Notes under the pieces: model-generated
The model's database searches: none
What the model was told of the DNA's origin: nothing
What the model saw: only the letters and a program-made list of their open reading frames with translations
Shown here: in pieces, positions 1 through 52,498 of the stretch
How positions within the stretch are numbered: the first letter of the stretch is position 1
Layout of the letters: each line of letters begins with the position of its first letter
Assembly (NCBI GenBank): GCA_938074335.1
Contig: CALJEL010000096.1
Span: 1 to 52,498, forward strand
DNA: 52,498 nucleotides
Origin: an uncultured bacterium
Lineage (GTDB): Bacteria > Nitrospirota > Thermodesulfovibrionia > Thermodesulfovibrionales > CALJEL01
Reading direction: 5' to 3'
Made by a program: the position numbers and the translations under genes

Positions 1-110
1 CCTCAAAGTCTTTACAATGCGACAATCTTTATTTATTATGTAACAAAAGTTCATCACTTAAAAAGGTGAAGTCAGTTATGTATAGTAAGCTTATTAATAG
101 TATTACACTA

Positions 111-236
111 AGGTGTCGCAGGTAAAGCCATTAGAGCACGGGGTGAAGACAAGCTTCACCCCGTGAACCCCGAAATATGGGCAGCCTGCCAGTTTTTATT
201 GAAGGTTTATTATAAATTTCTATTGGCAGATTGCGG
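111..236 (-). repeat. Composite hairpin repeat, copy A (shortened)
   Basis: Reverse-strand copy of the element also present at 32835-33000 and 52303-52469. It contains the hairpin at 137-165 (arms CACGGGGTGAAG and CTTCACCCCGTG), then the conserved block that includes AATTTATAATAAACC on the plus-strand complement side. Compared with the other two copies it lacks the second hairpin block between the main hairpin and the terminal GCGACACC segment, so it looks like an internal-deletion form. No gene is supported in 1-311; the minus-strand ORF here is only the repeat read through. Confidence 0.85.
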
Positions 237-14802: not shown

Positions 14803-14878
14803 GTGTGGTTACTATATTGAAATGTCACACATAATTACTATTTTAAAATGTCACATATATGGTAGTCTCCTTCTTAAG
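14803..14878. repeat. Insertion-sequence end, copy 1 (76-bp direct repeat)
   Basis: A 76-base sequence that recurs at 16642-16717 in the same orientation with one visible mismatch. It holds two spaced copies of AAATGTCACA, a subterminal repeat pattern expected of a transposase-bound end. The second copy leads into a transposase start remnant, which identifies this as the 5-prime end of the same element. Here no transposase codons follow. Confidence 0.8.
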
Positions 14879-15145: not shown

Positions 15146-15159
15146 AGGAAGGGGTGTTT

Positions 15160-15190
15160 CACGGGGGTGAAGCTTGTCTTCACCCCCGTG
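15160..15190 (+). repeat. Covarying hairpin of the composite repeat, solo copy
   Basis: Arms CACGGGGGTGAAG and CTTCACCCCCGTG around CTTGT. Compared with the hairpins at 137-165 and 52373-52401 there is one extra G in the left arm and one matching extra C in the right arm, so pairing is kept. The rest of the composite element is missing here. Confidence 0.8.
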
Positions 15191-15245
15191 CTGAAGTACC
15201 TAAGGATCTGGCACCTCAAGTTCCTGCTAAGCAGGAATGTCCGAA

Positions 15246-15325
15246 GACAAAGTAGTGCGACAGAGCGACAGAACGACAGTGCGACGTAAGGGTGTTCTGT
15301 GTAGTCTATTGCACTATCGCACTAT
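15246..15325. repeat. Degenerate GCGACA tandem units with inverted partner
   Basis: Short units such as GTGCGACA, GAGCGACA, GAACGACA and GTGCGACG follow each other from about 15249 to 15285. A reverse-complement partner (TTGCACTATCGCACTA) follows at about 15309-15324. The same unit type appears at 40894-40926, so it belongs to the tandem-repeat family seen in the other islands. No coding potential is seen between 15199 and 15514 apart from a 32-codon frame listed among the rejected items. Confidence 0.65.
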
Positions 15326-15355
15326 GGTGAGGCAACCTGCCAGTAAGGTAAAACT

Positions 15356-15514: not shown

Positions 15515-16219
15515 CTAGAAGGCCAGCCCTGCTGTAAGATAGGTATAATGGAAGGGAATTTTTTCTATAGAATAGATGCTGTATCTAAGAGATGATACGA
15601 ACCTTTTATAGCCATACTTAAGTTCCAGTCCATAACCCAGATTTGTTGTATTATAGAGCTTTTTCTTTCTTTCAATGTTAGCTATTTTAAATTCGAAATC
15701 TACATGGCCATCTATGGGAATAAACGCCTCAGCCATGAATTCAAGCATATGGGGACCAGAAGCCTCTTTAAAAAACAATCCCTGTGATATATAGAGCTCT
15801 TCTATTTTAAGGTCAAACTTACCTTTTATTTGGGGGTATGCAGTAGGTCCACCTGTTGCATCCATATGTGTAATCCTGTAGACAGGTCCTATATAGATAC
15901 TTTCAAAAGTAATACCTGTTCTAACAGTTGCAGTACTTATATTCCATGATGATTGTGTTCCGTATTTTTCTATTCCTTCCTTATCACTGATAGTACCAAT
16001 AGCTTCTGTCCTTACCTGTAAATCATTGCCAAGTTTTATATAATTTACTGCCCTTAAGCCATATAGCTTGTAATACAGTTTTATAGTACCTTCTTCATAT
16101 CCGATATTCTTAACCACTGCAGTTCCTGTGACAGCCTCTACATGCGTTTCAGCATAGGAAGCACCGTAAAAAACTGCTGTGATCATAAATACGATCAGTA
16201 AAGTAATAAGCTTCTTCAT
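15515..16219 (-). CDS. Exported beta-rich protein, possibly outer membrane
   Basis: A 234-residue protein with a clear signal peptide: MKKLIT, then a hydrophobic core, then FYGASYA with probable cleavage before ETHVEA. The mature part is rich in alternating polar and aromatic residues, and the C-terminus is LTAGLAF, ending in phenylalanine as in many outer-membrane beta barrels. No family is recognised. The start has AAAGGAGG seven bases upstream. A 10-bp stem hairpin (CAGCAGGGCT/AGCCCTGCTG, about 15508-15534) spans the stop codon. The gene lies alone between two direct repeats of an insertion-sequence end. Confidence 0.75.
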   Translation of the reverse strand: MKKLITLLIVFMITAVFYGASYAETHVEAVTGTAVVKNIGYEEGTIKLYYKLYGLRAVNYIKLGNDLQVRTEAIGTISDKEGIEKYGTQSSWNISTATVRTGITFESIYIGPVYRITHMDATGGPTAYPQIKGKFDLKIEELYISQGLFFKEASGPHMLEFMAEAFIPIDGHVDFEFKIANIERKKKLYNTTNLGYGLELKYGYKRFVSSLRYSIYSIEKIPFHYTYLTAGLAF

Positions 16220-16641: not shown

Positions 16642-16717
16642 GTGTGGTTACTATATTGAAATGTCACACATAATTACTATTTTAAAATGTCACATATTTG
16701 GTAGTCTCCTTCTTAAG
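16642..16717. repeat. Insertion-sequence end, copy 2
   Basis: Near-identical to 14803-14878 in the same orientation. About 15 bases after it a ribosome binding site (AAGGAGGAG) and a transposase-like start codon follow, which shows it is the transposase-proximal end of an element. No other gene is supported in 16220-17065: 16220-16640 holds only a short hairpin (GCTGTT-CCCC-AACAGC, 16541-16556), and 16821-17030 shows nothing recognisable. Confidence 0.8.
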
Positions 16718-32752: not shown

Positions 32753-32834
32753 TTAATCGTGACCAGTTCAGAATAGGTTTTACTAAAAAGTAGTATACAT
32801 CTAACTAATTACAAGAGTCAAATAGCCGAATTGT

Positions 32835-33000
32835 TCCGTAATCTGCCATTAGAAATTTATAAAAAGCCTTTAATAAAACTGGTAGAATGCCGATATTTTG
32901 GGGTTCACGGACTGAAGCTTGTCTTCAGTCTGTGCTCTAAAGGCAATACTAAACCCAGAAAATCTAATGATTTTCTGGGGACCCCGCTTGCGACACCTTA
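32835..33000 (+). repeat. Composite hairpin repeat, copy B (full length)
   Basis: About 166 bp. It starts CCGTAATCTGCCATTAGAAA, contains hairpin 1 at 32906-32934 (CACGGACTGAAG/CTTCAGTCTGTG), hairpin 2 at 32955-32980 (CCCAGAAAATC ... GATTTTCTGGG), and ends GCGACACCTTA. Relative to copies A and C the first hairpin differs on both arms so that pairing is kept. Directly after it come the 9-base tandem units. Confidence 0.85.
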
Positions 33001-33175
33001 GTAGAGCAGTAGAGCAGCAGAGCAACAGAGCAGCAGTTAATAACAGAGCAGTAGAGCAGCAGGCAATAACAGAGCAACAGAGCAGTAGCGCAGCAGAGCA
33101 GCAGTTAAATAATAAAAAGAAATTCCTCAATAAAAACTACTGCTCTACTGCTCTGCTGGTCTGCTGCTCTATTAA
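33001..33175. repeat. Degenerate 9-base tandem array with inverted arm (island 1)
   Basis: From 33001 to 33108 the units AGAGCAGTA, AGAGCAGCA and AGAGCAACA are repeated with small spacers (GGCAATAAC, GTTAATAAC). A spacer beginning GTTAAATAATAA follows, and then the reverse-complement arm (CTACTGCTCTACTGCTCTG ...) from 33137 to 33171. The spacer and arm recur at 41077-41150. ORFs on both strands are only the repeat read through. Confidence 0.85.
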
Positions 33176-33179
33176 AAGT

Positions 33180-33267
33180 AACTCAGGCATTCTTGCCTGA
33201 GAAAAGTAACTCAGGCATTCTTGCCTGAGAAAAGTAACTCAGGCATCACAGACAAGAATGTCTGTGC
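33180..33267. repeat. Tandem palindromic units plus a variant hairpin
   Basis: Two exact 28-bp units at 33180-33207 and 33208-33235 each contain CTCAGGCA-TTCT-TGCCTGAG. A third, cut short at 33247, runs into CACAGACA-AGAA-TGTCTGTG (33248-33267), a different hairpin with the complementary loop. The last hairpin recurs with a G-T wobble at 41180-41199. The stretch 33268-33591 holds a broken copy of the composite repeat (about 33300-33327) and otherwise nothing recognisable. Confidence 0.8.
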
Positions 33268-33591
33268 TACTGCTCTGATGGTCTAAGAAGACTTTGAGGC
33301 AGACTGCCAGTTCTCTAATGGCAAAATAGAGATTGTTATCCTATTTAAAGAATCTAAAGGAATGAAAACTTCATTCAAGGAGGCATAAGGACTCAAGTCT
33401 TAAGACTTTTTGGGTAAGGATTGGAATTAATAACTAATTATGCAATACGGTAAAGTTTCAAAAAAACGATTTTCCGTCTCCTAAAATAACAGAGGTTTTC
33501 AAAATAAAAGATTAATCAATTGTGCAAAAATTTGCCAGGGTTAAAATAACGAGGCAAAGACTTGCTTAATAAGCATACTCCCCTACTAATT

Positions 33592-40831: not shown

Positions 40832-40893
40832 TTTAGGCTCATCTCGGATTATGGTGCAAAGGATAAGGATATGGTCTAAAGATGCCTAAAAGT

Positions 40894-41150
40894 AGTACGA
40901 TAGTGCGACAGTGCAACGGAGCGACAGGCAATAACAGAGCAGTAGAGCAATAGAGCAGTAGCCGCAAGCTTTAGCTTGCGTTTTTTGTATTTCCACCATT
41001 TATCGCAGGCTGAAGCCTGCGGCTACCTCCTTTTTAGACCAGCAGAGCAACAGAGCAGCAGCGCAGCAGAGCAACAGTTAAATAATAATAAGAAAAAAAC
41101 TTCCTTAATAAAAACTACTGCTCTGCTGCTCTACTGGTCTGTTGCTCTAT
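40894..41150. repeat. Degenerate tandem arrays and nested hairpins (island 2)
   Basis: GCGACA-type units at 40894-40926 pass into AGAGCAGTA units to 40960. Then come two hairpins, CGCAAGCT-TT-AGCTTGCG (40963-40980, followed by TTTTTT) and CGCAGGCT-GA-AGCCTGCG (41004-41021), and more 9-base units (41039-41076). A spacer and an inverted CTGCTCT arm (41115-41148) match those of island 1. No gene is supported in 40832-41284. Confidence 0.85.
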
Positions 41151-41179
41151 CTGTCGCACTGTAGCACTACTTTGTAAGC

Positions 41180-41199
41180 CACAGACAAGAATGTTTGTG
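41180..41199. repeat. CACAGACA hairpin, second copy
   Basis: CACAGACA-AGAA-TGTTTGTG is the counterpart of 33248-33267. One arm base has changed to T, leaving a G-T wobble pair. It is followed, as in island 1, by TGCTCT-type units and TTTTGAGGCA. Confidence 0.7.
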
Positions 41200-41284
41200 C
41201 TACTGCACTACTGCTCTGCTGGTCTAAAAAGGTTTTGAGGCATCCCCTGCCATTAAAAATGCATTTCTATCGACAAATTGAGGC

Positions 41285-52302: not shown

Positions 52303-52469
52303 CCGTAATCTGCCATTAGAAATTTATAAAAAGCCTTTGATAAAACTGGCAGTCTGCCCATATTTCGGGGTTCACGGGGTGAAGCTTGTCTTCACCCCGT
52401 GCTCTAAAGGCAATACCAGCACCCCAGAAAATCTGACGATTTTCTGGGGACCCCGCCTGCGACACCTTA
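52303..52469 (+). repeat. Composite hairpin repeat, copy C (full length)
   Basis: About 167 bp and co-linear with copy B, in inverted orientation to copy A. Hairpin 1 is at 52373-52401 (CACGGGGTGAAG/CTTCACCCCGTG) and hairpin 2 at about 52423-52449 (CCCAGAAAATC ... GATTTTCTGGGG). It ends GCGACACCTTA and passes into TAGAGCAGTAGACCAGCAGACC units that are cut by the window end. No gene is supported in 52073-52498. Confidence 0.85.
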
Positions 52470-52498
52470 ATAGAGCAGTAGACCAGCAGACCAGTAGA

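Follow-up and report, generated by a model that had tools for sequence, protein, structure and literature searches.

The window analysed here, 52,498 nucleotides long, is the entire contig C96 of the host draft genome (G000; 2.22 Mb in 116 contigs). It contains copies of a repeat that we identify below as a MITE. The copies and their parts are as follows:

1..236, minus strand: MITE copy 1, with hairpin 1 present and hairpin 2 absent, truncated by the contig start (236 of its bases align at 99% identity with a 268-bp element that has no hairpin 2)
15158..~15372, plus strand: decayed composite containing the hairpin once taken as 'solo' (matches at 15158-15192 and 15248-15350; right-end-like GAGGCAACCTGCCAGTAAGG near its end)
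32830..32835, no strand: target-site duplication ATTGTT, left of copy 2 (sequence)
32836..33331, plus strand: complete MITE of type A, 496 bp (copy 2), both ends recognised and an exact 6-bp duplication flanking it
32836..32852, plus strand: left terminal repeat CCGTAATCTGCCATTAG of copy 2 (119 genome matches at one mismatch or fewer; 1 for the reversed control)
32906..32934, plus strand: hairpin 1 module (CACGGACTGAAG / CTTCAGTCTGTG), optional and interior (arms without covariation over 63 copies)
32954..32979, plus strand: hairpin 2 module (CCCAGAAAATC / GATTTTCTGGG), optional and interior (same palindrome solitary in other genomes of the order)
33315..33331, minus strand: right terminal repeat of type A, reading CTCTATTTTGCCATTAG on the minus strand (compare the intact IS1380 end CCCTATTTTGCCGATAG in genome G046)
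33332..33337, no strand: target-site duplication ATTGTT, right of copy 2 (sequence)
40881..41283, plus strand: degraded element of type B, left end unrecognisable (best match to a complete element at 77% identity, with the right end reading CTATCGACAAATTGAGG)
52303..52498, plus strand: MITE copy 3, truncated by the contig end (sequence matches)

The first-pass annotation of this DNA had described at least three copies of a non-coding element, with its blocks in a fixed order, plus a solo hairpin. Related copies do lie at 1-236 (reverse strand), from 32836 on and from 52303 on, and a hairpin at 15160-15190, but their extents were wrong. What had been drawn as a 166-bp element at 32835-33000 is the 496-bp copy 2, which begins with CCGTAATCTGCCATTAG, closes with the inverted counterpart CTAATGGCAAAATAGAG and has ATTGTT on both sides, and the supposed solo hairpin sits in a decayed composite that has a right-end-like sequence of its own. 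Nor is the block order fixed, as hairpin 2 is missing from copy 1 and both hairpins from many elements. Copy 2 has a predicted fold much stronger than that of shuffled sequences (z = -9.9). Within it, at 33174-33250, there is a tandem AAAAGTAACTCAGGCATTCTTGCCTGAG, a small palindromic repeat. Elsewhere in the window, a stretch with a 234-aa ORF at 15515-16219 is bounded by a 76-base direct repeat (14803-14878 and 16642-16717, 99% identical) that contains two TGTGGTTACTAT...AATGTCACA units. This ORF, a suspected insertion-sequence gene, had no Pfam match; the repeat pair may represent the ends of another mobile element.

Because the window is a whole contig and both of its ends (C96 positions 1 and 52498) fall inside element copies, copies 1 and 3 are truncated. 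Many other contigs of the draft also terminate within copies (C92, C71, C110, C23, C35, C52, C68 and C113, for example). The assembly was therefore broken by the element, which explains part of its fragmentation, and the copy numbers given here are lower bounds.

The left-end pattern CMSWAAWMTGCCRWTAG has about 119 matches in the draft genome with at most one mismatch, against 1 for the reversed pattern, and there are about 42 core copies. From the stretches around most of the left-end sites we collected 64 two-ended copies with matched terminal inverted repeats, a few of which have a common right end, their left ends being sometimes nested. Their lengths of 66-608 bp leave no room for a transposase. 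Of the 64, 29 are bordered by exact duplications of 5-8 bp, most of them 6 bp long, while 0.54 were expected from shuffled flanks. In 25 of the 64 a duplication is wholly absent, and we read these copies as decayed. Copies of 66 bp and 83 bp consist of almost nothing but ends and still have their duplications, so the hairpin modules are dispensable for insertion. Once the element and its duplication had been removed by script, 2 of 24 insertion sites fell within an ORF of at least 100 codons, compared with 348 of 480 random nearby positions. At the orthologous site of the genus-mate G001, synteny is lost immediately past the upstream gene. Related MITEs with duplications of 5-8 bp are also found in other genomes of the order. 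The repeats are short, multi-copy and gene-less, with inverted ends and target duplications, and they form a MITE family. Type I bacterial MITEs are defined as short, multi-copy elements with target duplications and with inverted ends resembling an autonomous element's, inserted mostly between genes (PMC4133298).

Three mutually related types of ends can be distinguished in this family. Type A elements run from CCGTAATCTGCCATTAG to CTAATGGCAAAATAGAG and type B elements from CCCTAAACTGCCGATAG to CTATCAGCAAATTGAGG, and type C has the right end GTATCGGCAAAATAGGG. Their interior is modular: hairpin 1, hairpin 2, arrays of AGAGCAGTAG / CTACTGCTCT and other palindromes occur singly or combined, and a simple form of 210-222 bp, without hairpins 1 and 2, is common. 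The two hairpins and the arrays were probably picked up within the arms as passengers. MITEs with similar ends and other palindromic cargo, of the GTCATTCCGAAGGAGC... and GTCATTGCGAGCACCC... types, were seen at three loci in genomes G126 and G046 (L172, L258 and L274).

The stem of hairpin 1 had been thought to covary between copies, and a structured RNA had been put forward as one identity of the repeat. We compared its arms in 63 copies (64 matches minus one spurious). A GGAC left arm is present in 6 of the 63 and a GT-type right arm in 14; only 2, copy 2 among them, have both and so show the compensated arms. Another 12 copies have the GT-type right arm alone and 4 the GGAC left arm alone. 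The two arms vary independently of each other (Fisher p = 0.61), and in the rest of the genome most changes in one arm have no partner in the other, an outcome that the first-pass annotation had itself named as refuting its reading. The covarying stem is not upheld; as a covarying RNA, hairpin 1 is ruled out by this assortment. The exact hairpin 1 pattern gave no match among named genomes, a set that may not include the host itself. A search of Rfam at gathering thresholds gave no match for the element either. We found no evidence for the structured-RNA reading. A riboswitch-like or small RNA family that had multiplied by duplication and had its functional parts in hairpins 1 and 2 would fit the strong predicted folds and the compensated stem of copy 2, but it would have to accommodate arms that vary independently, the loss of hairpin 1, hairpin 2 or both from many copies, target duplications that point to insertion as a unit, and the absence of an Rfam match. 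We consider it extremely improbable.

Hairpin 2 is a palindrome of roughly GGGGTCCCCAnAAAATC-n-GATTTTnTGGGGTGC, which is also found alone, without MITE ends, in genomes G011, G012, G027, G029 and G033. The solitary loci are L049, L050, L052-L054, L056, L061, L062, L066, L068 and L070, with no Y1 transposase nearby in the loci checked. Reading of the sequences places the palindrome at an identical position inside the elements of the host and of G001, and it was probably acquired by the elements of their common ancestor. REP/BIME sequences, to which the repeat had also been likened, are short palindromes that have neither inverted ends nor target duplications and are linked to a Y1 (RAYT) gene, and Y1 transposition leaves no target duplications. 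Taken alone, hairpin 2 does resemble a REP-like palindrome that stands by itself in related genomes, and the host has two Y1_Tnp matches, both of which would suit palindromes mobilised by a RAYT transposase. However, the MITE as a whole has long inverted ends and target duplications, contrary to Y1 transposition, so the REP/BIME likeness does not extend to the whole element; moreover, the palindrome was present in 0 of the 10 Y1 loci examined, and no Y1 link of hairpin 2 was seen. RAYT mobilisation of the repeat is thus hardly credible.

The remaining proposal, a MITE-like family mobilised in trans, is supported by the inverted ends, the target duplications, the copy number and the lack of a transposase gene inside, and a search for a transposase gene with matching ends was successful in a relative of the host. 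In contig 60 of genome G046, CCCTATTTTGCCGATAG and CCCTAAATTGCCGATAG enclose an intact 444-aa transposase that scores 243 bits with the IS1380 model, above the cut-off of 180, and these ends agree at 16 of 17 bases each with the type C right end and the type B left end of the MITEs, respectively. The left flank of this element is common to another contig. Two genomes of the Thermodesulfovibrionales, G044 and G045, contain IS1380 elements with CCCAAATTTGCCGATAG ends, which have the same end core; in G044, one putative pair of contig ends, matched to each other by their flanks, has a common 7-bp flank (ATCTACC). Other complete IS1380 elements of the order, whose inner end sequences differ, are flanked by duplications of 4-8 bp. 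The end motif CCNNAANYTGCYGATAG was detected in 41 of the 177 genomes of the order, and in four of them in high number. In G046 we also observed, on contig 149 (L199, 49-851), an IS1380 copy in which the AGAGCAGTAG filler of the host MITEs has taken the place of part of the interior, possibly an intermediate between insertion sequence and MITE.

Multi-copy elements are often missing from draft assemblies. The host draft has no intact IS1380 transposase, only a dead, internally deleted remnant at C10:3641-3757, and the genome has no PF01609 transposases. An intact source in the same genome is not necessary for MITE status, although its absence limits the claim that the family is derived from IS1380. 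Probably the host has lost the source or the draft lacks it, and a transposase of the G046 IS1380 subgroup is the likely agent that moved the host copies.

Fragments of IS256-type (PF00872) transposases are present in host contigs C34, C57, C88 and C39 (L151-L154), several of them at contig ends. They raise the alternative that another DDE transposase, for instance one of this kind, moved the MITEs, the IS1380-like ends being due to shared ancestry or coincidence. In its favour, IS256-type fragments are found in the host where intact IS1380 is not, and the MITE duplications (mode 6 bp, range 5-8) are a mild mismatch to the 4-5 bp reported for the IS1380 family (PMC12116815). Against it, each of the two unequal MITE ends has a counterpart, identical at 16 of 17 bases, in an intact IS1380 element, and IS1380 elements of the order themselves show duplications of 4-8 bp and, for the G044 pair, a common 7-bp flank. 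We judge this alternative unlikely.

Judging from these sequence comparisons, the MITE family has very likely been moved in trans by an IS1380-type transposase. In the mechanism that we propose with considerable confidence, an IS1380-type DDE transposase would act in trans on the unequal inverted ends, of about 17 bp, of these transposase-less elements; it would cut the target in a staggered manner, leaving duplications of 5-8 bp, mostly 6; and the inserted copies would survive mainly between genes.

A further property of the family, outside what the first-pass annotation saw, emerged when 22 simple copies were aligned, drawn from the host, from its genus-mate G001 and from G043, a member of a different family of the order. 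Each half of the element pairs with the other in one long stem of 40 consensus pairs, with 95.5% of cells paired. Both sides have changed in 51 cells, compared with 17.1 +/- 3.0 in shuffles (none of 500 reached 51) and at most 18 in slid registers, counts that are not to be read as probabilities, since this alignment also supplied the structure and its sequences share ancestry. For example, GCGACA/TGTCGC in the host corresponds to GCCACA/TGTGGC in G043. There is genuine covariation in the whole-element stem, across three species and two families.

Template switching between arms is known as quasipalindrome correction. The observed stem pattern would follow from any of three processes: this template switching, selection acting on the structure, or ends that evolved together. 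It is conceivable, although we hold it only tentatively and think it rather doubtful, that the long foldback, complementary in three species of two families despite sequence turnover, is functionally required, either as the cruciform or single-strand hairpin on which an IS1380-type transposase acts or as a structured segment of transcripts. If this were true, the elements would be structure-selected MITEs that also gather other palindromes as modules. Whether the arm complementarity of MITEs is kept by structural selection or by template switching between arms is now a general question that can be tested.

These results give an abundant repeat of an under-studied order, the Thermodesulfovibrionales, a likely mobiliser and clear insertion marks, and they link MITEs to the IS1380 family. 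The family is a new one of a well-known kind of genomic parasite, and is neither a new RNA nor a regulator. Within its limits, our literature search returned no MITE family derived from IS1380 and no such elements in the Thermodesulfovibrionales. IS1380-family insertion sequences are exemplified by ISEcp1 and ISPme1. The MITEs resemble such insertion sequences in ends that start with CC and that match on both sides those of the G046 element, and in staggered insertion with a short target duplication; they differ in having no transposase gene, in their length (66-608 bp as opposed to about 1.6 kb) and in duplications that are mostly of 6 bp rather than the 4-5 bp of the family (PMC12116815). 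With the Correia elements (CREE) and the Tn3-derived TIMEs they have in common the features of short, multi-copy type I MITEs, namely inverted ends, target duplications and a mainly intergenic location, but they are set apart by their IS1380-type ends, by an interior built in modular fashion from repeat arrays and optional palindromes, and by a long stem that covaries across three species.
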